Virus record (IMG/VR): IMGVR_UViG_3300010392_000349
Location: 1 to 28,356 of that record
From: a virus
DNA: 28,356 nt
Reading direction: 5' to 3' (one strand)
Each line of letters begins with the position of its first letter. Position 1 is the first letter of the stretch. A program made the translations under genes and the position numbers. Below the pieces are notes generated by a model, which had not been told where the DNA came from, did no database searches, and was given only the letters and a program-made list of their open reading frames with translations. Shown here piece by piece: positions 2,938 to 18,362 of the stretch.

Positions 2938-4388
2938 GCCTTGAGCAACTCATTGCTTTAAACAAGAAGATTATGGAATACGACCGTTTCCACCGGTTAG
3001 AGTCTTACGACCCCTACCCCTTTCAGAGGGAGTTCCATTCAAGCTTCGCTGGGCAAATCGCTCTTATATGTGCCAACCAGATTGGTAAGACGACAGGAGG
3101 GGCCGCAGCGGTCGCCTATCACGCATTAGGTGAATACCCCGAGTGGTGGGAGGGGAGGAAGTTTAACAAGCCCGTAACCATCTTGTGTGCGGGGGTCTCA
3201 AACGACTCAACCAAGAGAATCATCCAGCACGAGTTAATCGGAGGAACTAAGGGCACTCCAGAGTGGGGGACGGGTATGATTCCCAGAGACCGTTTAGGAG
3301 AACCCACGAGAAAGGCAGGCGTCCCAGAGGCGTATGAAAAACTCATAGTAAGAGGGAAGTACGGCAACTCGACTATTTGGCTAATGGCCTACGAACAGGG
3401 TTGGCAGAAGTTCCAGGGGATTCGATTCGACTATGCTTGGCCCGATGAGGAGCCTCCTGTAGACGTTTGGAGTCAGTTACTCCGAGGGACTATCGCACGT
3501 CCTGATAGTCAGATAGCCATGACCATGACCCCTGAAGAGGGGATGACTGAAGTGGTTGCGGGGTTCTTTAATGATTTAAAGGACGGACAAGCTCTTGTAA
3601 CAGCGACATGGGAGGATGCCAAGCATGATGACGAGAACACATTTCACAAGGTTGGTTGCACCCATCTTACGGAGGCAAAGAAAGCCCAAATCCTCCTCGC
3701 CCTCCCGCCTCACCAGAGGGAGATGCGGTCAAAGGGAATCCCTCTTATGGGAAGTGGACTCATCTTCCCGATCAATGAAGAAGAGTTAATCTGTGAAAGA
3801 AGGGAAATCCCTGACTACTGGCCACAAATCATAGGGATAGACTTCGGAATAGAACACCCCTTTGGAGCGGTTAGATTGGCGTGGGACAGGGACTCAGACT
3901 GTATCTACGTGATAAACGAATACCGCGTTTCAGGAAAGACCCCTCCCATCCACGCAGAGCATGTTAAAGGCTGGGGGTCATGGATACCTATCATGTGGCC
4001 GCACGACGGGATAATAAGGGATAAAGGCTCTGGGATAGCCATGCACACCCAGTATCGGAATATAGGTTTAAAGATGCACTATGAGAAGTTCTCAAACCCT
4101 CCGGCGATTGGTGAGAAAGAAGGACAAGGAGGTCAGGGTGTTGAAGCAGGACTCAGTGAAATGCTCACCCGTATGGAAACCAGTCGGTTTAGAGTATTTG
4201 CTGACTGTCAAAAATGGTTAGAAGAGTACCGTATGTATCACAGAAAAGACGGTATGGTGGTCAAAGAAAGGGATGATTTAATGGCGGCTACCCGTTATGC
4301 TGCACAAATGTTAAGATTTGCCCGTACAAATCGACAAAGTTACAAGAAAAAACACCGAAACCGTGAATTAAAGAAAGGAATTGTATGA
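2934..4388 (+). CDS. terL: Terminase large subunit (packaging ATPase and nuclease)
   Basis: This is the motor that pumps DNA into the prohead and cuts it. Residues 1-54 carry the adenine-binding region (PYPFQREF) and a Walker A variant ANQIGKTT at 47-54. Walker B with the catalytic Glu is YAWPDEE at 167-173. The C-terminal RuvC-like nuclease begins IIGIDFGIEHP, with the first acidic residue, and the final acidic motif is probably RDDLMAATRYA. Length 484 aa fits the compact terminase family. It is coupled by ATGA overlaps to the small zinc protein before it and the AT-hook protein after it. Confidence 0.95.
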   Translation: MSLEQLIALNKKIMEYDRFHRLESYDPYPFQREFHSSFAGQIALICANQIGKTTGGAAAVAYHALGEYPEWWEGRKFNKPVTILCAGVSNDSTKRIIQHELIGGTKGTPEWGTGMIPRDRLGEPTRKAGVPEAYEKLIVRGKYGNSTIWLMAYEQGWQKFQGIRFDYAWPDEEPPVDVWSQLLRGTIARPDSQIAMTMTPEEGMTEVVAGFFNDLKDGQALVTATWEDAKHDDENTFHKVGCTHLTEAKKAQILLALPPHQREMRSKGIPLMGSGLIFPINEEELICERREIPDYWPQIIGIDFGIEHPFGAVRLAWDRDSDCIYVINEYRVSGKTPPIHAEHVKGWGSWIPIMWPHDGIIRDKGSGIAMHTQYRNIGLKMHYEKFSNPPAIGEKEGQGGQGVEAGLSEMLTRMETSRFRVFADCQKWLEEYRMYHRKDGMVVKERDDLMAATRYAAQMLRFARTNRQSYKKKHRNRELKKGIV

Positions 4389-4558
4389 TTCATCACAACG
4401 ACAAGACTTTAAAGGACATGAATATCACCAATTTCCAAGAATTTGGTATTCATGGTCTAGTTGAGGTCATTTCTAAACTGGAAGACAGGGTTTCTGCTTT
4501 AGAAGCGAAGTATGAACCCAAGAAACGCGGGAGACCGCCGAAGGTAGTGAATGGCTAA
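4385..4558 (+). CDS. 57-aa coiled-coil protein with a C-terminal AT-hook
   Basis: ATG at 4385 overlaps the TerL stop (ATGA), and the TAA at 4556-4558 lies inside the first codons of the portal gene. Residues 24-43 (GLVEVISKLEDRVSALEAKY) form a short coiled coil. Residues 46-53 (KKRGRPPK) contain the RGRP AT-hook core, which binds the minor groove of AT-rich DNA. A small oligomeric DNA-binding protein made together with TerL and portal could help packaging; that role is inference. Confidence 0.7.
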   Translation: MIHHNDKTLKDMNITNFQEFGIHGLVEVISKLEDRVSALEAKYEPKKRGRPPKVVNG

Positions 4559-6485
4559 AATGAAGAAAGATGAGCTTAGCGCTCTATTAGGGTCTGAGAT
4601 AGACATGGCCTATGGCGCTGACTCTGGAGAAATCTCTGAAGAAATCGCAGAAGCAATAGACTTCTACCTAGGACAGCCCTTTGGTAACGAAGAGGACGGG
4701 AAGTCTCAGGTTATCTCAAGGGACGTAATGGATGTCATTGAGTGGGTCATGCCCTCTTTGATGAGAATCTTCACCTCTAACGAACGAGCCGTAGTCTTCG
4801 ACCCAACAAAGCCTGGTGATGAAGAAGCTGCCAAACAAGAAACCGATATTGTTAATCATGTCTTTTATAAAGAGAACGATGGTTTTCTGAATTTATACAC
4901 CTTTTTCAAAGATGCTCTTTTGTCTAAAAATGGAATTATGAAGATATGGTGGTCTCCAGAGAAAGACACTGAACGAGAGGAATATACAGGGCTTACAGAG
5001 TTAGAGCTTCAGGTCTTACTAAGTGACCCAGACGCCGACCCTATCGAACACTCCCAAGATGGTGATCTACATGACATTACCGTCCTAAGGACTAAGAGTG
5101 ATGGTAGTGCGAAGGTAGAACCCATCCCCCCCGAAGAGTTTCTTATTTCTAAAGACGCTGACTGTATCGACCCTAAAAAGGCACGATTTACCTGTCACAA
5201 GACCTTAAAGACCCAGACTGAACTTATAGAAATGGGCTTTAAGAAGTCAAAGGTTAAGGATTTGCCCGCATGGGATGGGGCTGATATTAACGGGGAAGAT
5301 ATACGAATCGCCAGGAACCATCTTGAAGATGATACCTTCTCAAAAGATTCAAACCACGAAGCTACAAGACACATACAAGTTTATGAATGTTACTACCGTG
5401 TAGACTTTGATGGAGATGGTGTTGCCGAACTACGTCAGATCACGATGGCTGGCAGGGAGATCTTACTTAACGAACCCGCTGATAGAACTCCATTTGTCGC
5501 GATAACTCCTATCATACTAACCCATAAGTTCTATGGACTGTCTTTAGCCGACATGGTGATGGACATCCAGTTGATTAAGTCCACCCTTCTTAGGGGTGTC
5601 CTGGACAATACCTATCTTGCTAATGACGGCAGAACCGCTTACCAAGAGGGTATGGTTGACCTTGACGATCTCTTGACCTCTAGGAATGGCGGGACAATTG
5701 AAACTCAAGGCCCGCCGTCTAACGTCTTGTATTCAGTCCCTTTTAACCCACTCCCCCCTCAGACATTAGAAGTCTATAACCAGATGGACTCTATGAGGAA
5801 GGAGAGGACAGGTGTGTCACAAGACACAATGGGCCTTGAGTCCAACGTCCTTGCTCACGGTAGAACTGGAGTCGTCAATCAGTCTTTCGATATGGCTCAA
5901 ATGCGAACAGAGCTTATTGCTAGAATCTTCGCTGAGGTCGGAGTCAAGAACGTCATGCGCGAACTCCACGCTATCCTTCAAAAGAATCAAAAGAAGTCAA
6001 AATGGGTTCAGTTAAGGGGTGAGTGGGTAGATATTCGACCTGATGAGTGGCGCACTCGTAACCAGATGACGGTTAATGTCGGGCTTGGTTCAGGTAATAA
6101 GGACAAGCAAGTCCAGAATGTCACTCAGCTTATCGGATTACAGAAGGAGTCTCAGAATGTAGACCCTGCCAAGCTCTACGCAGCACAGGAGAAGTTTGTT
6201 GAGGTTTTGAACTTGGGTGACGGGTCTACTTACTTCAAAGACCCTGCCAAAGAACCACCAGAACCCCCTGCTCCTGATCCAGAACAGCAGTTGATACAGG
6301 CTCAGATACAACTCACTCAACAGCAGGTTGATGTAGCGAGGAGTGAGATGGAGACTAACCGTCAAGAGGCTATCTGGAAGCACGAAGACGAGGTTAGGAA
6401 GATAACATTATTAGATCAGCGTGAACGCTACAAGATAGAACTCGACCATCAGCGTAACGTACCTGGAGGGCTTGCAGTTGTTTGA
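4551..6485 (+). CDS. Portal protein
   Basis: A 644-aa protein directly after the terminase, in the size range of podovirus portals. The dodecameric portal forms the DNA channel at one head vertex. N-terminal features such as SRDVMDVIEWVMPSLMRIF followed by TSNERAVVFDPTKPGDE are typical of the SU10/P22-like portal group. The C-terminal ~90 residues are Gln/Glu-rich and helical (LIQAQIQLTQQQVDVARSEM), as in portal barrel or crown regions. It overlaps the AT-hook gene by eight bases and the following gene by eight. Confidence 0.92.
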   Translation: MAKMKKDELSALLGSEIDMAYGADSGEISEEIAEAIDFYLGQPFGNEEDGKSQVISRDVMDVIEWVMPSLMRIFTSNERAVVFDPTKPGDEEAAKQETDIVNHVFYKENDGFLNLYTFFKDALLSKNGIMKIWWSPEKDTEREEYTGLTELELQVLLSDPDADPIEHSQDGDLHDITVLRTKSDGSAKVEPIPPEEFLISKDADCIDPKKARFTCHKTLKTQTELIEMGFKKSKVKDLPAWDGADINGEDIRIARNHLEDDTFSKDSNHEATRHIQVYECYYRVDFDGDGVAELRQITMAGREILLNEPADRTPFVAITPIILTHKFYGLSLADMVMDIQLIKSTLLRGVLDNTYLANDGRTAYQEGMVDLDDLLTSRNGGTIETQGPPSNVLYSVPFNPLPPQTLEVYNQMDSMRKERTGVSQDTMGLESNVLAHGRTGVVNQSFDMAQMRTELIARIFAEVGVKNVMRELHAILQKNQKKSKWVQLRGEWVDIRPDEWRTRNQMTVNVGLGSGNKDKQVQNVTQLIGLQKESQNVDPAKLYAAQEKFVEVLNLGDGSTYFKDPAKEPPEPPAPDPEQQLIQAQIQLTQQQVDVARSEMETNRQEAIWKHEDEVRKITLLDQRERYKIELDHQRNVPGGLAVV

Positions 6486-8758: not shown

Positions 8759-9085
8759 ATGAAGCAACTATTAGATTCAGACTATTTAACGGGTGTGAGT
8801 ACATGGCATAGCTATGACCATCACACCGGAATAACCACGATAGAAACAACGCAAGACTGTTCTTCTTTCGTAGAAGAAAACAAGAAACGCCACAAATCAT
8901 CCTATCAAAAGGATGGGATAAAGCAGGAGTGGATGCACGCTGCTACCATTCCGATTATTATTCAAATGAAGTGGAAGCAGGAGTTAGGAGTGGATATATA
9001 CAACCCTGACCATTCAAAGAAAATAGCTTCCCTCTTAAACGATCCAGAATACAGGTATTTAAAGACTGGAACTCTCCGGTTGTGA
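8759..9085 (+). CDS. Conserved phage protein following the capsid gene
   Basis: 108 aa, starting three bases after the T-tract of the terminator. The C-terminal half (EWMHAATIPIIIQMKWKQEL, then GVDIYNPDH, and LLNDPEYRYLKT) matches the pattern of a small protein often encoded just after the capsid gene in podoviruses, remembered as GVDxxNxDH...LLNDPxxRxLRT. Its role is unknown. It probably belongs to the structural set rather than to the glycosyltransferase cassette, although its stop overlaps the GTG of the next gene. Confidence 0.75.
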   Translation: MKQLLDSDYLTGVSTWHSYDHHTGITTIETTQDCSSFVEENKKRHKSSYQKDGIKQEWMHAATIPIIIQMKWKQELGVDIYNPDHSKKIASLLNDPEYRYLKTGTLRL

Positions 9086-10425
9086 TTGACTACGCTTATA
9101 TGCGGCATCTTGATCGAGATGCTAGATTCGATATTGCGCTAAAACTTTACCATGCTAGTGAGTTGTATGACGCGATGTCTGTTGTTGGCCTTATTGTCGA
9201 TGACAATCCAAATGACTATGAGGCTATTTACCTCTACGGAGCAATCCTTCAAGACTCAGATAAGAATGGATTTGCTGAACTCATGTTTACTAGATGCACA
9301 GAGATAGACCCAAGTAGACATGATGGGTGGATGGCTAGAGGGACTTCGATTAAAGACCCTGCAAGATCCGATGAAGCGATAAGTTTCTTAATAACCGCAC
9401 TACTAATAAACCCTAAAAGCACGGCAACACTAGCTAACATTGCAACAATCTATAACGATATTCATGAGTATGAGTTAGCTGAAAAGTATTCTAGAAAGGC
9501 TTTAGAGTGTGGTGGAGGTATGGCTTCACATGACACTCTTGGAACTGCTCTATTAGGACAAGAAAGGTTCGGTGAAGGATTTGATGAAGTTACTCATTCT
9601 TTAGGCGGGAAGTACAGAAAGGAAATCGTCTACGGTGATGAGGAAAGGTGGGATGGAAGTAAAAATAAAGCAGTCATTATCTATGGTGAACAAGGATTAG
9701 GGGATGAGATCTTCTATGGCTCTGTTATTCCAGATGCAATAAAAGACTGCAAGAAAGTCATTATAGATTGTGACCCTAAGTTAGAGGGTCTCTTTAAAAG
9801 ATCTTTCCCTAAAGCATCTGTATACGGAACGAGAGAGAAGTCTGCATCATGGCTTAAAGATCATAAGTGGGATGCAAGGTGTTCAATGGCTGGTATTTCT
9901 CAATTCTATCGAAGAGACAAAAAAGACTTCAACGGAAAACCGTTCCTAATCCCTGATCCTGTAAGGGCAGAGCAGTGGGCGCATACATTGTCTGGTGGGG
10001 TGAAGATAGGTCTAGCCTGGAATGGCGGGTCTAGAATGACTGGCTATAAATTCAGACATATCCCGTTAAGTGAGTTTGCTCCTTTCTACAAGATGGGGGA
10101 ATGTATCTCACTTGAGTATACAAAAGTAGACACGAAAGGTTATCCGATAAAGTGGTACGACTTTGCGACCATTTCAAATGACTATGATGACACCGCCGCC
10201 CTTGTCGCTAATCTTGACTACGTTATTACTACCTGTACCTCTATTGTGCATTTGGCAGGAGGTCTTGGTATACCGTGTTTTGTGTTAAAGAATCCATATA
10301 CATCATGGCGCTATGCTCATGATATGCCGTGGTACAAATCTGTCAGAACCATTGAATGGGGAGGCAGTTGGAAAGCTGGTATTGATAAAATCAGAAAGCT
10401 CATTGAGCTAAGGAAAGTGGCATGA
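9082..10425 (+). CDS. TPR-repeat glycosyltransferase (GT9/OGT-like, GT-B fold)
   Basis: 447 aa, GTG start overlapping the previous TGA. Residues ~15-175 are tetratricopeptide-like helical repeats (YEAIYLYGAILQDSDKNGFA; DEAISFLITALLINPKSTAT; YELAEKYSRKALECG). The C-terminal half is a GT-B enzyme of the type often found behind TPR repeats: GEQGLGDEIFYGSVIPD, then VKIGLAWNGG and DTAALVANLDYVITTCTSIV followed by HLAGGLGIPC. Such enzymes transfer a sugar from a nucleotide donor to a protein or glycan; TPRs usually hold the acceptor. It opens a five-gene overlapping cassette. Donor and acceptor cannot be read from sequence. Confidence 0.85.
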   Translation: MIDYAYMRHLDRDARFDIALKLYHASELYDAMSVVGLIVDDNPNDYEAIYLYGAILQDSDKNGFAELMFTRCTEIDPSRHDGWMARGTSIKDPARSDEAISFLITALLINPKSTATLANIATIYNDIHEYELAEKYSRKALECGGGMASHDTLGTALLGQERFGEGFDEVTHSLGGKYRKEIVYGDEERWDGSKNKAVIIYGEQGLGDEIFYGSVIPDAIKDCKKVIIDCDPKLEGLFKRSFPKASVYGTREKSASWLKDHKWDARCSMAGISQFYRRDKKDFNGKPFLIPDPVRAEQWAHTLSGGVKIGLAWNGGSRMTGYKFRHIPLSEFAPFYKMGECISLEYTKVDTKGYPIKWYDFATISNDYDDTAALVANLDYVITTCTSIVHLAGGLGIPCFVLKNPYTSWRYAHDMPWYKSVRTIEWGGSWKAGIDKIRKLIELRKVA

Positions 10426-11360
10426 ACTCTATCACTAGTCGTATAGACGCAGTAACACTGATCGACCCAGAACATCTAGGGACTGAAATCCCCGTACCAC
10501 GAAGCGTAAAGATTGAGTTAACAGGACGATGCAACTTCTCCTGTTCGTTCTGCGCTCGAAGTCAGAAGTTAAGAGAAGTACAAGACATTGATAAAGACTT
10601 CTTCTTTCGTGTTCTAAGAGAGATGAGAGATGCAGGTGTTGAGGAGATTGGTTTATTCTATCTTGGGGAATCGTTCATGGTGCCGTGGCTACCTGAAGCG
10701 ATTAAGTATGCTAAGGACATTGGATTCCCGTATATATTCCTCACGACGAACGGGTCGTTAGCTACAGGCACTAAAGTACAAGATTGCATGGCTAACGGGC
10801 TAGACTCTTTGAAGTTCTCCTATAACTACGCTGATGGGGATCAGTTAAAGTCCATAGCGAAGGTGAAAACCTCATACTTTGATAAGATAGTTGAGAACAT
10901 GAAGACAGCGCGTCAGATTCGTGACGCTTATGACTATAAATGTGGTCTCTACGCATCATATATTGAGTACGATGGTGCTCAGAATGAGCGTATGAAGGAG
11001 GCGGTTAAGGAAATAGAGCCTTATATGGATGAGGTCTACGCCCTTCCATTATACAACCAAGCTACGCTCGTACAGGGGCAGACAGAGGGTTGGAGTTATA
11101 CCGCTGGGAACCGTGGACGACTAAAAGCTTTGAGAGAGCCAATCCCCTGTTGGTCTGTCTTCACAGAAGGTCACATAACCTGGGATGGTAAGCTAAGTGC
11201 TTGTTGTTTCGACCATAATGACCACTTCACAATGGCTGACCTTACCAAGACTTCCTTTGTCGATGGGTGGAACTCTGAGGAGTTTAAAACACTCCGTCAG
11301 GCGCATCTAAACAAGGATATAAAGGGGACAGCTTGTGAAAGCTGCGTAGCTTATGCTTAA
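10422..11360 (+). CDS. Radical SAM enzyme with SPASM-like C-terminal Cys domain
   Basis: 312 aa. The CX3CX2C cluster motif is Cys37, Cys41 and Cys44 (ELTGRCNFSCSFCARS), which binds the 4Fe-4S used to cleave S-adenosylmethionine. The GES-like FYLGESFMVPW and the FLTTNGSLA strand fit the radical SAM barrel. A C-terminal set (Cys243, Cys261/262, Cys305, Cys308) resembles a shortened SPASM domain holding an auxiliary cluster. Such enzymes modify peptides or carry out sugar chemistry; next to four transferases, a glycan or surface-polymer role is favoured, by inference. It overlaps both neighbours. Confidence 0.9.
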   Translation: MNSITSRIDAVTLIDPEHLGTEIPVPRSVKIELTGRCNFSCSFCARSQKLREVQDIDKDFFFRVLREMRDAGVEEIGLFYLGESFMVPWLPEAIKYAKDIGFPYIFLTTNGSLATGTKVQDCMANGLDSLKFSYNYADGDQLKSIAKVKTSYFDKIVENMKTARQIRDAYDYKCGLYASYIEYDGAQNERMKEAVKEIEPYMDEVYALPLYNQATLVQGQTEGWSYTAGNRGRLKALREPIPCWSVFTEGHITWDGKLSACCFDHNDHFTMADLTKTSFVDGWNSEEFKTLRQAHLNKDIKGTACESCVAYA

Positions 11361-12057
11361 AATCTTCATAGGATATGATGCAGTAGAATCAGTGGCTTAT
11401 CACACTCTTGTCCAAAGTATACTAGAATACACAAAAGAGCCAGTGTCGATAACGCCTATAAAGCTGTCGATGCTCCCTGAGTATACGAGATCGAGGAATA
11501 CGAAACAGTCAAATGAATTTTCATTCTCACGGTTCCTTGTGCCTTACCTGTGTGATTATGAAGGTTGGGCGTTATTCATGGATTGTGACATGATGTTCAC
11601 TGACAGCGTATCTGAGTTATGGAAACTAAGAGACGAGTCCAAATCCGTACAGGTCGTGAAGCACGACTATACGCCAAAGTCCCAAGTGAAGTATCTTGGC
11701 GCGATACAGTACCCGTACCCACGGAAAAACTGGTCTTCAGTCATGCTCTTCAATTGTCAGAGGTGCAAGAAGCTTACGCCCGCCTTCGTAAACACTGCTC
11801 ATCCAATGGAACTTCATAGGTTCCACTGGTTGAAAGACGAGGACATTGGCGAACTCCCCAAGGAGTGGAATCATCTCGTCTACGATCTGCCTCCAAACCC
11901 AAATGCCAAGATAATTCATTGGTCTACGGGTGGGCCGTATTTCCACGAATACCAACATTGTGAGTATTCAACAGACTGGTTCAAGATGAAAGTGAAGATG
12001 GGGAACTGCCAACAAAGCGGGAATGAAAATGAAAATAAACTACATAACACTGGCTAG
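11353..12057 (+). CDS. Glycosyltransferase, GT8-like (GT-A, DxD)
   Basis: 234 aa. It opens IFIGYDAVESVAYHTLVQSI, typical of small GT-A transferases. The metal-binding DxD is Asp77-Cys-Asp79 (ALFMDCDMMFTDS). The late IIHWSTGGPYFHEY corresponds to the second metal/acceptor motif of GT8-like enzymes. FSFSRFLVPYL before the DxD is also typical. The stop is a TAG followed at once by an in-frame TAA. The next gene starts 35 bases before this end. Donor sugar unknown. Confidence 0.85.
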   Translation: MLKIFIGYDAVESVAYHTLVQSILEYTKEPVSITPIKLSMLPEYTRSRNTKQSNEFSFSRFLVPYLCDYEGWALFMDCDMMFTDSVSELWKLRDESKSVQVVKHDYTPKSQVKYLGAIQYPYPRKNWSSVMLFNCQRCKKLTPAFVNTAHPMELHRFHWLKDEDIGELPKEWNHLVYDLPPNPNAKIIHWSTGGPYFHEYQHCEYSTDWFKMKVKMGNCQQSGNENENKLHNTG

Positions 12058-12871
12058 TAAAGAACTAGCAGCAAGACGCTACAGGATGGAGATGCCTGGT
12101 GAGTACATTGGTGATTACATCGTCACCAACTTCCCCTGTATTGCTGATGTGTATGTCATGGGGAAGGCGTATACAAAAGATGAATTGCTTTTGCAGACCT
12201 ACCTAGCTAGAGCAAAGAAACTGAGTTTTGTCTTTGATCTCTGTGATGACATATTTGACAGAGAAGAACATGACTACTACAGGAAGATGATAATGCTTGC
12301 TGAAAAGGTCGTAGTCCCTACAGAGGCAATGCGTGAAGTAGTTATAAAGGAAACAGGCATTTATCCTACAGTCATACCCGATCCTTATGCGTTTGATGAA
12401 AAGCCTATAAAGGACATATCGGAGCCTAAGTATCTGTGGTTTGGACATCCTACTAATCTCAAATACCTTGAACAAGTCAAACATATGAAGCTAGAGGTTG
12501 TTACAACAGACTCACCTGAAACAAGGGATTTCCTAAAAGACTATAACTGCACTCTAACTGAGTGGTCTGCAGAGAACCTACAAGAAGCGTTCGACAGGAA
12601 TAACGTAGTCCTAATCCCAAGTGACGACTCAAGGAAGAATAGTGTAAAGAGTAATAATAGGGTTATAGAGTCCATAAGACAGGGGATGTCAGTAATTGCA
12701 CATCCCATCCCTTCTTATAAAGAATTCGACATATCGTTCGACTTTGACAAGATTAAGAAGACAACGCCCGAACTACAGAAGCAGGTAAGGGATAACTACA
12801 ATATTTCTGTTATAGGTGAAAAATGGAAAAAGACATTAAGCTCAACATTGGATGTGGCCGAAGGGTTCTAG
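12023..12871 (+). CDS. Glycosyltransferase, GT4/GT1-like (GT-B, short)
   Basis: 282 aa, shorter than typical GT4 enzymes (about 350-400). FDLCDDIFD lies in the N-terminal domain, followed by AEKVVVPTEAMREVV at the domain boundary and PTVIPDPYAF entering the C-terminal domain. LWFGHPTNLKYLE is the strand that starts the nucleotide-sugar domain. NNRVIESIRQGMSVIAHPIP is the usual acidic donor-binding motif and following loop. Two starts are possible, ATG 12023 or 12029; both overlap the previous gene. It overlaps the methyltransferase by 49 bases. Confidence 0.8.
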   Translation: MKMKINYITLASKELAARRYRMEMPGEYIGDYIVTNFPCIADVYVMGKAYTKDELLLQTYLARAKKLSFVFDLCDDIFDREEHDYYRKMIMLAEKVVVPTEAMREVVIKETGIYPTVIPDPYAFDEKPIKDISEPKYLWFGHPTNLKYLEQVKHMKLEVVTTDSPETRDFLKDYNCTLTEWSAENLQEAFDRNNVVLIPSDDSRKNSVKSNNRVIESIRQGMSVIAHPIPSYKEFDISFDFDKIKKTTPELQKQVRDNYNISVIGEKWKKTLSSTLDVAEGF

Positions 12872-13317
12872 ATGGATGGATTAATGTTGATACGAGATCA
12901 AGGGGGTGTAAGCCTGATATAGACGCAGATGTTAGGGACTTACCCTTTCCTGATGATTACGCTGATGAAGTTATGGCTATTCATCTTATTGAGCATTTCT
13001 ATGTATGGGAGGCTCCAGCCGTTATTAAGGAATGGAAGAGAATCCTAAAGCCTGGAGGGAAATTAATCCTTGAATGCCCTGATCTTGAAAAGACCATCAT
13101 GCACATGGCAAACGGGAGGAGTGAGCCTAATCTAACGATGTGGCCTTTATATGGAGACCCATCTCATCAAGACCCGTTGATGTGTCATAAATGGGGGTAT
13201 AATGCTACATCATTGATTAAATTGATGGAGTTCTCTGGATTTGGTAAGGTGAGCCTAGAGGACGCACAGTTCCACATGAAGGAAGTTAGAGACATGAGAG
13301 TGGTCGCAACGAAATGA
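12823..13317 (+). CDS. Class I SAM-dependent methyltransferase
   Basis: 164 aa. Motif I is LNIGCGRR near residues 7-14, followed by GWINVDTR with the ribose-binding Asp. DVRDLPFPDDYADEV and HLIEHF are motifs II/III of the methyltransferase_11-type fold, and LKPGGKLILECPDL is the following strand. The lack of a DNA-binding domain and the position behind three glycosyltransferases suggest a small-molecule or glycan methyltransferase. Methyl capping of a sugar chain is a known theme in surface-polymer clusters, but is inference here. Confidence 0.87.
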   Translation: MEKDIKLNIGCGRRVLDGWINVDTRSRGCKPDIDADVRDLPFPDDYADEVMAIHLIEHFYVWEAPAVIKEWKRILKPGGKLILECPDLEKTIMHMANGRSEPNLTMWPLYGDPSHQDPLMCHKWGYNATSLIKLMEFSGFGKVSLEDAQFHMKEVRDMRVVATK

Positions 13318-13925
13318 GTATATCTACATATGCTGAACTACAGACAGCCGTAGCCAATTGGCTTGATCGTTCAGATCTGACTGACCGCATACCTGAGTTC
13401 ATCTCGCTAGCAGAGGCCAGGATAGCTCGAACCCTTAGAGTAAGAGGCGTAGAGGCAAGAGATACCTCCAATACTACTGATGGTTCCGAGTACTACACCC
13501 TCCCCACAGACTTCCTAGAGGCACGAAACGTCCAGATCAATACAAACCCTGTCAAGGTTTTGACCTATAGAACACCCCAACAACTTGACAAAGAATACCC
13601 ATACGACACCGCAGGAACAGCACAGTGCTTCACTATTATCGGTGAGCAGATCCAGTTAAAGCCAATCCAAAGCTCAGGGCAGGTCCTGGAGATTGCTTAT
13701 TTTAAAAAGCTCGCTCCGCTTTCAGCTTCCAATACAACTAACTGGATTATGGCTAATGCCCCTGATCTTTTGTTATACGGGTCGTTAATGGAGGCTGAGG
13801 CCTTTCTAGTCAATGACGAAAGAATCCCAATATGGAGAGGGGCTTTTGATACCTCTATGAAAGAGTGGAACGTACAAGACAAGAAGGGCCGTCATTCAGG
13901 CTCTATGTTAGAGATTAGGAGATAG
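13314..13925 (+). CDS. Head-to-tail adaptor protein, SU10 adaptor type
   Basis: 203 aa. The N-terminus (MSISTYAELQTAVANWLDRS, then DLTDRIPEFISLAEARIART) is characteristic of the podovirus adaptor family represented by the SU10 adaptor, which docks under the portal. YYTLPTDFLEARNVQ and the basic C-terminus (KKGRHSGSMLEIRR) also fit. It is coupled to the end of the methyltransferase gene (ATGA), which shows where the modification cassette sits: between head genes and the head-tail connector. Confidence 0.85.
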   Translation: MSISTYAELQTAVANWLDRSDLTDRIPEFISLAEARIARTLRVRGVEARDTSNTTDGSEYYTLPTDFLEARNVQINTNPVKVLTYRTPQQLDKEYPYDTAGTAQCFTIIGEQIQLKPIQSSGQVLEIAYFKKLAPLSASNTTNWIMANAPDLLLYGSLMEAEAFLVNDERIPIWRGAFDTSMKEWNVQDKKGRHSGSMLEIRR

Positions 13926-13926
13926 T

Positions 13927-14799
13927 ATGTCAATAGAATCACCGTTTACCCATATCACTGATTTAAATTCTTCATGGCCCGATGGGGCAGTTGATGATGT
14001 CTCCGAAGGTGACAATCATATACGAGGGCTAAAGACTGTCCTCCTAACAGACTTCCCTAATATTGATGCGGCTGTTACCGCTGATCCAGCAGACCTTAAT
14101 CGAACCGACATCACTACAGAAGGAACGTCAGAAACCAGTAAGGTCATGACGGTTAGCTCTGGTGATGCCATTGTCAATACAGGTATGACATGGACTGACC
14201 TTGGTGCTGTCACTACTGCTGATATCAATGGGGGGACGATTGATGGAGTAGCACTAGGTACGACAAATACAGGCAATACTGAATCTCCTGGTAATAGTTC
14301 TACTAAGTTAGCGACGACTGCTTTTGTTCAGGATACGAAGTGGACTTTTCTGGATACGTTTGATACGACAGGCACAACAGAGCTTGGTAACAATACTTCA
14401 ATCCCATCTACAGCGATTGGTATCAAGTTTGTATTCTACGGCCCAAGCACGATAGGTAGTGGCGTACAATCTGTAGTACTTGGTGACTCTGGTGGGTATT
14501 CAACAACGGTTGCAGGTGGTATTTCTTCTGGCACAATAAATGTTGGATTTTCTACAGTATATCAAGTTAGTGTTAGCGCAGTTGCTGCAATAACACAATA
14601 TGGCACTATCGAATTTACTAAACTTGACGGTGTTAATGTGTGGACTGGTTCAGGAGTTGTTGCTGATGGAAGTGGCACGGTAGATACATCGATATCTGGT
14701 GGCATGATAACGCTTGCAGGAGCTTTGGATAGATGCAAGGTTACTATTCCGTCAAGTACATTTGATGCTGGGTCAGTGGATGTTTATGTTCGTTCTTAA
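13927..14799 (+). CDS. Tail fibre protein
   Basis: 290 aa, Ser/Thr/Gly-rich and largely beta. The N-terminal SWPDGAVDDVSEGDNHIRGL, then KTVLLTDFPN, is a signature of many phage tail-fibre N-termini. NSSTKLATTAFVQD near residue 125 is the classic fibre repeat motif. The remainder is irregular beta sequence likely to form a receptor-facing domain. The last codons overlap the start of the lipoprotein gene in another frame. Confidence 0.8.
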   Translation: MSIESPFTHITDLNSSWPDGAVDDVSEGDNHIRGLKTVLLTDFPNIDAAVTADPADLNRTDITTEGTSETSKVMTVSSGDAIVNTGMTWTDLGAVTTADINGGTIDGVALGTTNTGNTESPGNSSTKLATTAFVQDTKWTFLDTFDTTGTTELGNNTSIPSTAIGIKFVFYGPSTIGSGVQSVVLGDSGGYSTTVAGGISSGTINVGFSTVYQVSVSAVAAITQYGTIEFTKLDGVNVWTGSGVVADGSGTVDTSISGGMITLAGALDRCKVTIPSSTFDAGSVDVYVRS

Positions 14800-15514
14800 A
14801 GTTTTACTGCTTTCCCTCTTCCTCACTGCTTGCGGTGGTGGGGGTTCTGGCGGAGGTTCTAGTAACAGTGTAACAAGGTTTATAGAAGAGCCTGTTATTA
14901 TAGAGCCTGAAGAAACGCATTGTATTTCACAAGATAGGAACTGTTCTAATGCAGACGTAGACCTGAATGCCCCGGTAAGGTGGGCTGCTGATAACGGTAT
15001 AAGTATTGTCCATATTCGTTGGGCAGGGTGTTCTGATGAAAAAACATCTAAGTATGCCTTTGAAAGAGGCGTAACAATTATCTGCATTGCTACAAACGAA
15101 TTTAGAGAAATAACAGCTAATTCAAAATACACGATTACAGTAAGCAGTTCACATAGATTTGCCGACTATGGCCCTGGTATTGACTATACTTTAGGGAAGA
15201 AAGGAACCATCCATTCAGGTATCTGGGCGACTGCTTTAGTATCTGTTGGTGAGCCTGTAGGTAATTATACCTTTGAGGGTTATAGCAAGATGTCACTCCC
15301 CTCTAAACCAGTGATGATTGTGGATAATGGTTTCGACCACAGGCCACTATACGTTCTACATAAAAATCCTATGCTTGCTGGTGAGATCACTGGTGATTAT
15401 GGGGTGAAGGCATTAAACGAGCTTTCAAGGTGGGTGGATGTGGATGTAATTGGTTATGTACCATTTAACACCATGCCGAAAGAACCGCGAATAGATAACT
15501 GGAAGATTATTTAA
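14786..15514 (+). CDS. Lipoprotein with a degenerate subtilisin-like domain
   Basis: I chose the ATG at 14786 because it gives a compact lipoprotein signal peptide, MFVLKVLLLSLFLTAC, with lipobox LTAC and lipidated Cys16; it overlaps the fibre gene by 14 bases. A Gly/Ser linker (CGGGGSGGGSS) follows. The mature domain resembles part of a subtilase: APVRWAADNGISIVHIRW, YAFERGVTIICIATNE (oxyanion Asn retained), YTITVSSSHRFADYGPGIDY and KGTIHSGIWATALVSVG. The Asp and His segments of the triad are missing and the GTS serine is replaced by Ile, so it should not be a protease. A superinfection-exclusion or host-surface role is possible but unproved. Confidence 0.7.
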   Translation: MFVLKVLLLSLFLTACGGGGSGGGSSNSVTRFIEEPVIIEPEETHCISQDRNCSNADVDLNAPVRWAADNGISIVHIRWAGCSDEKTSKYAFERGVTIICIATNEFREITANSKYTITVSSSHRFADYGPGIDYTLGKKGTIHSGIWATALVSVGEPVGNYTFEGYSKMSLPSKPVMIVDNGFDHRPLYVLHKNPMLAGEITGDYGVKALNELSRWVDVDVIGYVPFNTMPKEPRIDNWKII

Positions 15515-17115
15515 TGGCTATCGTCCCTAACAATGACCTAGCTTCCATTGGGATAATCACCGATCAACTCCCTATGCAACTCCCTCCTGCTGGATGGAGT
15601 AACGGTAGTAATGTAAGGTTTCTCGACAACAAGGTTATTAAGTTTACAGGTCAAGCAGAGTTCTTTGATACTGGTTCTAATTGGGATGGAGGAACTGGTG
15701 AGCAGGTTTATTACGCTATTCCCTACAATGATGGAACTGATGCTTATTGGGTTTATTGTGGGCTTAAGGATGTTCGAGTTACCAATGGTGTAGCCTCAAA
15801 GGAAATAACAAACGCTGCTGATTTTAGTGCAACAGCAAATAAAAACTGGACAGGTGGAATTTTAAGCACCTTTCTTATATTGAATAACGGAGTTGATGAA
15901 CCTCAGAGTTGGACGGGGGATTATGCAACTCCTGCTCTTTTGCTTGACCTTGCTAACTGGACTACTGGTGATAAATGCGGGGCTATGCGTGTTTATAAAA
16001 ACTATCTAGTAGCTTTGGATGTTACCAAGTCTGGAACTAGATATAAGACACTTGTTAAGTGGTCTGACTCTGCTGCTCTAGGTGCTTTACCTGGAAGCTG
16101 GGATGAGACTGACGCTACGGTAGACGCTGGTGAAACCGACTTATCAGAGAAGCAGAAAGATGTAAATATAGGTGCTTTAATTGATTGTCTCCCTCTAAGG
16201 GATACGAACATTATCTACTCTGACTCTCAGACTTGGGCAATGGATTTTATTGGCGGTACGTTTGTTTTTAACTTTCGTCAAATATTCAAAAACAACGGTA
16301 TCTTAACTAGAAGGTGTGTTCAGGAGTTTGAAGGCAAGCATTTTGTTGTGGGTAGTGGTGATGTCTACGTCCATGATGGAGCTACATTAAAATCAGTCAT
16401 AGACTCTAGGAATAAGAAGTTCCTCTTCTCTGATATGGATGGTACTAACTACGAAACAACTTATGTGTTTGCTAATTACGAGCAAACAGAAATGTGGATC
16501 TGCTATCCGCAAGTTGGTTCTGCAACTCCTCTCCCTACGGTAGCTCTTGTATGGAACTGGAGGAATGACGCATGGGGCAGGAGGGATTTAATAAACACTC
16601 CTACTCATGGAACACCTCATATCTCAAGTGGTGTTGTTGATACCTCAGTCGCAGATGACACATGGCAGACAGGAACAAGAGGTGCTTTGACATGGGATGC
16701 CGCTACGAGCATTTGGGATATTCTAGGTTTTAGCCCTCAAGAACAAAGTCCTTTAATATGCGCTGATAAACTCTATAAAGGTGATTCTACTAATGCTTTT
16801 GATGGCACTCCTTTTGAAGCAACTATTGAAAGAACAGACATCCCTCTAGGTGAGCAAGATCAGATAATGAGGATTAAGGCTTTCTATCCGAAGATGTCTG
16901 GAAGTGCCTCGGTTAATATTCACGTAGGCTCTCAGATGGCTCCCGGTGGGACTGTTGACTGGGGAACTCCTATAACTTTCACCCCCGGTACTGATATTAA
17001 GATAGACGTAAGAAAGACAGGAACACATGCTGCTGTTAAGGTTGAGTCATCTGGAGACCAGGATTGGTCTTTGGTTGGTTATGAAATAGAAGTTGAACCA
17101 GTGGCAAAGAGATGA
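15514..17115 (+). CDS. Tail nozzle / tail tubular-type structural protein
   Basis: 533 aa, beta-rich, starting at an ATG that overlaps the previous stop (TAATG). The opening PNNDLASIGIITDQLPMQLP, then PAGWSNGSNVRFLDNK, is typical of the large phage tail protein that follows the adaptor in SU10- and P22-like podoviruses. In those phages it forms the nozzle below the adaptor. The middle has blade-like beta repeats (FVVGSGDVYVHDG; VALVWNWRNDAWGRRD), as in a propeller. The C-terminal ~90 residues form a separate beta domain. Confidence 0.75.
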   Translation: MAIVPNNDLASIGIITDQLPMQLPPAGWSNGSNVRFLDNKVIKFTGQAEFFDTGSNWDGGTGEQVYYAIPYNDGTDAYWVYCGLKDVRVTNGVASKEITNAADFSATANKNWTGGILSTFLILNNGVDEPQSWTGDYATPALLLDLANWTTGDKCGAMRVYKNYLVALDVTKSGTRYKTLVKWSDSAALGALPGSWDETDATVDAGETDLSEKQKDVNIGALIDCLPLRDTNIIYSDSQTWAMDFIGGTFVFNFRQIFKNNGILTRRCVQEFEGKHFVVGSGDVYVHDGATLKSVIDSRNKKFLFSDMDGTNYETTYVFANYEQTEMWICYPQVGSATPLPTVALVWNWRNDAWGRRDLINTPTHGTPHISSGVVDTSVADDTWQTGTRGALTWDAATSIWDILGFSPQEQSPLICADKLYKGDSTNAFDGTPFEATIERTDIPLGEQDQIMRIKAFYPKMSGSASVNIHVGSQMAPGGTVDWGTPITFTPGTDIKIDVRKTGTHAAVKVESSGDQDWSLVGYEIEVEPVAKR

Positions 17116-18362
17116 GCTTCAAACCAGACTCTTCTGAAGAGAACTCTCTTGAATGGGCGTTAAGACAGTTCTGGCGTATTTCAGATGCAGACTCACTTCA
17201 TACGGCTGGTAATTCACCAACCCTACCGGCAACAGGATCTAGTTGGAATGCTCATGGCAATACAGCCACAGGGGCAGCAGGATCTGCTGATAGCAATACC
17301 GGGACTCTTATTATTGATGAAGGAGCTTTCCTGGTTGGCAAGTCTGGAGCGGCAGTAGGGACTACCCCTGACATAGACCAGGCTGGAACCTATATGGCTT
17401 TCATCCCGGCAAAGGGAGCGTTCAGGATGGGCGCTGTAACGGATGGGAAGTGGGCTGATGCGAATATAGGATCTGGCTCTATAGCAATGGGCTTGAACTC
17501 TGTCGCCACACAAACAGGCAATGTTGCTTTAGGTGAAACTGCAACAGCAACAGGAATTGGTGCTATTGCATTCGGAGGCAGTACATCTTCTGGCGCTTCT
17601 CAAGCAGTTGCATTTCAGTCTATTGCACTAGGTGCTAATACCGAGGCCGGAACAAGTTCTTTTGTTGGTGTTGGGGCTATAGCAATCGGTATTGGGTGTA
17701 AAGCCTATGCTACTTATGGAACGACAATAGGATATCTAGGGGTTAACTCTGCTCCTGATGGTCTTGTTCTTGGGAAAAATAATGTAGCCGGGGCGTTTAC
17801 GGGAGCGACAGCAATCGGCCTTGACGTATCAGCCAGTGCTGCTGGTGCGATTTCTATAGGTTCTGGTGCTGGCCCAGGATCAAGACTGGATAACCCAACT
17901 GCCGGCTCCATGTATCTTGGCGCAAAGAGCGCTGATCCAACTCTTGTATTGAGGGGCGGCAAATGCGGCGTAGGTAATGAACCGAATCCATTGTCAACTC
18001 TTGATGTTAATGGATCTGTTGGGTATCAGTACAGAACATGGGTTCAGTCTGTTGATGGGTCAACATTAACAATATTAACAAGTGAGCATGAGCTTGTATT
18101 TATAATTTATCCAGATGGTGGCGATGTAACTGTTAATCTTCCTGCTATGGCAACCCTGGACAGGCGTATGTATCACATAAAAAATGCTGCAACAGCTTCT
18201 GGATCTGCTGGTCATCAGGTTAACATTACGCCGACTGGCGGCGATCTGATAGATCAGCAAGCAAAAAACACTGCCCCTGCAACCACAGCGCTTGCTGTTG
18301 ATAGATTGGATTCTGTTCAGCTTGTTGCGGATCTTGGTCATACAACATGGTGGGTAATATAA
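17112..18362 (+). CDS. Tail fibre with YadA-like head repeats
   Basis: 416 aa, coupled by ATGA to the nozzle gene. Residues ~110-265 hold about seven to eight repeats of the trimeric-autotransporter head type ([SA]-[IV]-[AST]-[LMFI]-G): SIAMG, NVALG, AIAFG, SIALG, AIAIG, ATAIG and AISIG, spaced about 14-25 residues. Such repeats form a left-handed trimeric beta-roll, used by bacterial adhesins and some phage fibres. The C-terminal ~90 residues (HELVFIIYPDGGDVTVNLPA; GGDLIDQQAKNTAP; VQLVADLGHTTWWVI) resemble fibre tip domains. It probably binds the host receptor. Confidence 0.8.
   Translation: MSFKPDSSEENSLEWALRQFWRISDADSLHTAGNSPTLPATGSSWNAHGNTATGAAGSADSNTGTLIIDEGAFLVGKSGAAVGTTPDIDQAGTYMAFIPAKGAFRMGAVTDGKWADANIGSGSIAMGLNSVATQTGNVALGETATATGIGAIAFGGSTSSGASQAVAFQSIALGANTEAGTSSFVGVGAIAIGIGCKAYATYGTTIGYLGVNSAPDGLVLGKNNVAGAFTGATAIGLDVSASAAGAISIGSGAGPGSRLDNPTAGSMYLGAKSADPTLVLRGGKCGVGNEPNPLSTLDVNGSVGYQYRTWVQSVDGSTLTILTSEHELVFIIYPDGGDVTVNLPAMATLDRRMYHIKNAATASGSAGHQVNITPTGGDLIDQQAKNTAPATTALAVDRLDSVQLVADLGHTTWWVI

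Follow-up and report, generated by a model that had tools for sequence, protein, structure and literature searches.

A predicted lipoprotein with an S8-derived half domain in a fibre/nozzle cargo slot of a distant LUZ24-like podovirus

In lipoprotein S8 autotransporters of the SphB1 and NalP type, a lipobox and a Gly-rich linker precede a peptidase S8 (subtilisin) domain. S8 domains are also encoded in phage genomes, as in Bacillus phage Goe3 and in the phage loci collected here (L109 and L110–L189). Subtilisin-like domains with inactivated catalytic residues are found in C. difficile CspC and CspA, regulatory pseudo-subtilases that pair with each other (PMC12880746), and a small lipoprotein of phage T5, Llp, mediates superinfection exclusion at FhuA (PMC9586334). 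Here we describe a phage gene for a 242-aa protein that resembles each of these in part. It has the order of lipobox, Gly-rich linker and S8 sequence of the SphB1/NalP type, but lacks the autotransporter barrel, the Asp/His half and the catalytic Ser. With CspA and CspC it shares a subtilisin-like domain that has lost catalytic residues, whereas those two are soluble proteins of the spore with the S8 fold kept whole. Like Llp it is a short, phage-encoded predicted lipoprotein, but it is larger, has an S8-derived core and lies in the structural operon, whereas Llp-type exclusion proteins are described as early-made; receptor binding would be by analogy only. Taken together, the data presented below identify the protein, very probably, as a predicted lipoprotein with an S8-derived half domain, encoded in a cargo slot of its phage.

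The window analysed is an entire IMG/VR record of 28,356 bases, with PHROG family matches for terminase, portal, scaffold, major capsid, adaptor and nozzle-like genes. Its nozzle-like gene shares 35% identity with the counterparts in Pseudomonas phages related to LUZ24 (for example, tf, NV1 and UFV-P2), and the window is therefore that of a distant LUZ24-like podovirus; this group has many environmental members (PMC10386132). The gene and its surroundings are as follows.

13314–13925, + strand: adaptor gene (PF24175 SU10 adaptor, 5.5e-37; phrog_2941, 2.8e-54)
13927–14799, + strand: upstream fibre (tail protein) gene (phrog_6465, 3.2e-8)
14786–15514, + strand: lipoprotein gene, 242 aa; open frame with overlaps with both neighbours and phage-like codon use
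14786–14833, + strand: predicted signal peptide with lipobox LTAC; predicted lipidated Cys at residue 16 (codon 14831–14833)
14945–15184, + strand: S8-homologous half domain, residues ~54–133 (helix D, strand 4, helix E, strand 5 with N104, strand 6, FADYGPGID)
15185–15511, + strand: C-terminal tail, residues 134–242, unique
15311–15337, + strand: VMIVDNGFD, residues 176–184, an Asp-motif-like strand and possible permuted S8 strand 1
15514–17115, + strand: downstream nozzle-like virion structural gene (phrog_3287, 6.9e-111)

The open reading frame at 14786–15514 is real. Its start overlaps the end of the fibre gene by 14 nt, an overlap inside the tail operon that an earlier note on this DNA had already described, and its TAA has one base in common with the ATG of the nozzle-like gene (taATG, 15512–15516); these overlaps with both neighbours indicate a gene packed into the operon. 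Its codon use and GC3 fall among the values of the phage's other genes. Another possible start, an in-frame ATG, is found two codons before it at 14780, and promoter-like sites for the gene, which is inside the structural operon, were not above those in shuffles. In the fibre gene, the first 78 aa align as conserved among LUZ24-like phages. Farther downstream, 17112–18362 encodes a YadA-head-like repeat protein (weak Pfam match, below the cut-off) that is possibly a receptor-binding fibre. We found no tRNA or Rfam match and no match to an anti-phage family.

To place the gene among its relatives, we compared the fibre/nozzle junction across 70 relatives that have both genes on either side of it. 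The two genes abut in 58, and the other 12 hold inserts of 248–785 nt. The junction is empty in the cultured phages NV1 and JB8. Nine of the 12 inserts appear to belong to the same 2OG-Fe(II) oxygenase family, of which a single sequence was tested and passed the PF13640 cut-off; one encodes a putative HNH-like protein, judged by eye; and those of L004 and L005 hold small open reading frames, the latter with a signal-like N-terminus. The oxygenases are 180–187 aa long in eight loci (L011, L030, L033, L040, L041, L049, L075 and L077), and the gene is split by a frame break in L032. The oxygenase genes start inside the end of the fibre gene, as does the gene in the window. The fibre/nozzle junction of LUZ24-like podoviruses is thus a recurring cargo slot, and in the window it is occupied by a protein unlike the other inserts. 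The earlier note had suggested a moron for superinfection exclusion or a scavenged host module; the accessory nature of the gene is supported, and is strengthened by the other inserts in 12 of 70 relatives. That the S8 module was scavenged from a host is plausible, but no donor was found, and the gene's codons are used as in the rest of the phage. A second and larger block of cargo, at 9082–13317, separates the major capsid gene from the adaptor gene; it encodes TPR-like, radical SAM/SPASM, GT8-like, second glycosyltransferase and methyltransferase proteins and may serve to alter surface glycans. In L004, a similar gene of the TPR type occupies the corresponding position (1154–2512).

The protein starts with MFVLKVLLLSLFLTAC followed by a GGGGSGGGSS linker. 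It has the n and h regions of a signal peptide, with a hydrophobic stretch preceding the lipobox LTAC16 and its Cys, and a pattern scan of six frames found no other lipobox-like open-reading-frame start in the window. By the Lol rule of enteric bacteria, a lipoprotein with Gly at position +2 would be expected in the outer membrane, and the residue after the lipobox Cys is Gly. Consistent with the lipobox and Gly/Ser linker singled out in the earlier note, the protein is a predicted lipoprotein, and both lipidation and sorting to the outer membrane are inferred from these signals.

Residues 54–133 are homologous to one half of the peptidase S8 domain, as judged by sequence comparison. When all PDB chains were searched by phmmer with the whole protein, the single significant match was a subtilisin-like protease (9rk9_B, E 8.5e-6). 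Residues 53–135 alone gave E 1.7e-6, and subtilisins made up 10 of the 11 matches up to E 10, whereas the reversed protein, used as a control, matched no subtilisin. In PLSDB plasmids, all 19 records matched by tblastn were S8 peptidases, though at E 0.2–2. An S8 profile hidden Markov model (HMM) scored 36.8–37.3 bits against a shuffle maximum of 4.7 (300 shuffles), figures biased by the choice of the genome S8 set with a pattern taken partly from the query protein; with a profile built from viral S8 proteins, for which the bias is smaller, the score was 18.6–19.1 bits against a shuffle maximum of 7.0. Because of the origin of that pattern, the unbiased figures are those of the PDB searches with whole protein and segment, the plasmid search and the reversed control.

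The segment aligns with residues ~101–190 of subtilisin BPN' (helix D to FSNYG), with identity to subtilisins of up to 43% over ~60 aa. RWAADNGxxIVHIRW corresponds to helix D and strand 4, YAFERGVTIICIATNE to helix E and strand 5, and ITVSSS and FADYGPGID follow. Within this stretch, the conserved groove segments SLGG and AAG of S8 are replaced by RWAG and IAT, and N104, which aligns with the oxyanion-hole Asn155 (BPN' numbering), is retained. The likeness to peptidase S8 (9rk9_B, BPN' and Carlsberg) ends there: the protein has no Asp/His half in place, no GTS Ser, a replaced groove and a predicted lipid anchor, and it falls below detection by PF00082.

The catalytic His and Ser of S8 are missing from the protein. 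The Asp/His half is not found N-terminally, where it would normally be, and PF00082 gave no match to the protein, even at E up to 10. For the HGTH motif of the catalytic His, the best score in the tail was 4.1 against an S8 minimum of 19.5, and 10% of background pieces equalled it; for the GTSxxxP motif of the catalytic Ser, the best score was −0.3 bits against an S8 minimum of 23.8. Of the five S8 landmarks that the earlier note had listed in order, four reflect genuine similarity to S8 and are correctly ordered; the fifth, KGTIHSGIWATALV, proposed as the GTS landmark, is that top-scoring window at −0.3 bits and is equalled by 7.7% of random 109-aa background pieces. As collinear S8 C-terminal motifs in the tail, KGTIHSGIWATALV, GYSKMSLP and GDYGVKALNELS are all at background, and collinear alignment of the tail with the S8 C-terminus was no better than with shuffles (z −0.65). 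The oxyanion-hole Asn, N104, is the sole catalytic residue left. With no Asp/His half in place, no His or Ser motif and PF00082 silent, the protein is S8-derived and not an S8 peptidase, and its truncated domain is almost certainly non-catalytic. The prediction of a dead domain with no Ser at the GTS position thus holds, as does the absence of the His; the absence of the Asp part is uncertain, because VMIVDNGFD sits in the tail, at a permuted position.

No full-length homologue was found in IMG/VR, INPHARED phages or PLSDB plasmids; viral contigs queried with the whole protein, the tail or the S8 segment gave no homologue, and profile-type queries returned ordinary S8 proteins or nothing. Phage S8 proteases differ from the protein in keeping their catalytic motifs: the Ser motif is present in 80 of 80 viral S8 proteins fetched and the His motif, by pattern, in all but two, one of them cut by a contig edge, and none of the 80 is a half-domain protein. 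The bacterial S8 proteins most like the 242-aa protein are also full length. L109, a phage contig, encodes at 3572–4618 an S8 protease that is complete in its Asp, His and Ser motifs and adjoins head genes, possibly a head-maturation or secreted protease.

The S8 segment was also assessed in structure models. An AlphaFold2 (AF2) model conditioned on S8 rows, which covered residues ~58–133 only, gave a pLDDT of ~85–95 over much of 61–130. When this model was searched with VIA, pyruvate-kinase C domains came out on top (best Z 6.7, model residues 54–194, ~100 residues) and subtilisins scored Z 4.2–4.5, in a range (Z < 8) that the tool itself notes is common between unrelated folds. Foldseek found nothing in BFVD and nothing in the PDB at E < 0.001. 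A single-sequence AF2 model had a pLDDT of 34, and the VIA run on it was meaningless. The earlier note had named a fold unrelated to S8 as evidence against its reading; the modelling did not refute that reading, in that residues 61–130 are confidently modelled when S8 rows are supplied, but the model is conditioned on S8 and the structures ranked highest for it, with middling Z, are C domains of pyruvate kinase.

The best explanation, which we hold tentatively, is that the gene is accessory ('moron') cargo at the fibre/nozzle junction of a LUZ24-like podovirus and that its lipid-anchored half-S8 product binds the envelope, without cutting, and blocks adsorption or injection. Under this model, the protein would be translated together with the structural genes, presumably late, secreted and lipid-anchored, probably in the outer membrane. 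Its folded core would be half a peptidase S8 domain (subtilisin strands 4–7 and helices D–E), which, given the absent His and Ser and the replaced substrate-groove residues, would not cut. Instead it would bind a target in the host envelope, such as a receptor or some other protein there, and adsorption or injection would then fail for further phages or for the phage's own progeny at lysis; alternatively, progeny would be kept off debris. Exclusion or debris masking by non-enzymatic action on the envelope is what we infer from these features, with Llp of T5 as a precedent. Half an S8 domain on its own would be expected to be unstable unless the tail or a partner supports it. This is one sequence with no close relatives, and the functional claim is consequently weak; we regard the proposed function as doubtful.

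Rather unlikely, in our estimate, is that the gene is a relic, a captured S8 protease lipoprotein gene in decay that is translated but functionless. The missing N-terminal half, the loss of His and Ser, the lack of homologues and the full length of the nearest-like bacterial S8 proteins would all fit decay, but the 242-codon frame and the lipobox are intact, codon use is phage-like and the start and stop overlap tightly with both neighbours.

The C-terminal tail raises the possibility of circular permutation. Residues 134–242 had no significant match in any library searched; PDB matches to methylglyoxal synthase and shikimate dehydrogenase (E ~0.2–1) are at chance level, and we rejected both as identities for a tail fragment. 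If the S8 domain were permuted, residues ~172–226 (the strand VMIVDNGFD, a strand, a helix and a strand) would supply the N-terminal half, giving a near-whole S8 sandwich without His or Ser. Against a position-specific scoring matrix of the S8 Asp motif, VMIVDNGFD reaches 12.4 bits (S8 minimum 14.7), which is expected by chance in the tail at 0.001 (9-residue window) or 0.01 (7-residue window) and was seen in 0 of 777 background pieces. The permuted local alignment gave z 2.2, with 2 of 100 shuffles as good; AF2 assigned the unaligned tail strand 172–181 a pLDDT of ~71; and the pyruvate-kinase C-domain rows cover residues 52–194 of the model, a topology that, we assume, would set the tail strand beside strand 4, in the place of S8 strand 1. 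Against this, restoring the S8 order of the sequence raises its S8 HMM score by only 0.8 bits (38.1 versus 37.3), an HGTH-like motif is absent, VMIVDNGFD was chosen after the fact, strings like ILNNGVD are present in unrelated nozzle proteins too, and we found no precedent in the literature. We therefore consider permutation unlikely, and still less likely the fuller version in which a permuted, catalytically dead, lipid-anchored S8 protein (C-terminal half first, then the Asp-motif strand) acts as an envelope-binding exclusion factor.

Improbable to a similar degree as that fuller version is a pseudoprotease acting as decoy or regulator, which would block or tune an S8 protease of the host envelope by pairing with it or with its substrate or inhibitor. 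Regulatory pseudo-subtilases do exist in CspC and CspA, but the protein has a half domain only, unlike either of them. Finally, a generic alpha/beta domain, like the pyruvate-kinase C domain and similar to subtilisin by chance, is highly improbable: it is favoured by the VIA ranking, at Z values common for unrelated folds, but the S8 sequence evidence (PDB phmmer, plasmid tblastn and reversed control) is specific and the segment has no Pfam PK_C match at E up to 10.

Returning to the envelope-binding lipoprotein, few lipoproteins are known by which a phage shuts other phages out at the host envelope, and most are small; if the proposal is true, such proteins would have gained a new scaffold in a protease remnant. 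If the permutation is true, a classic fold would have undergone a natural rearrangement of a rare kind. The fibre/nozzle cargo slot itself helps in finding accessory genes in LUZ24-like podoviruses.
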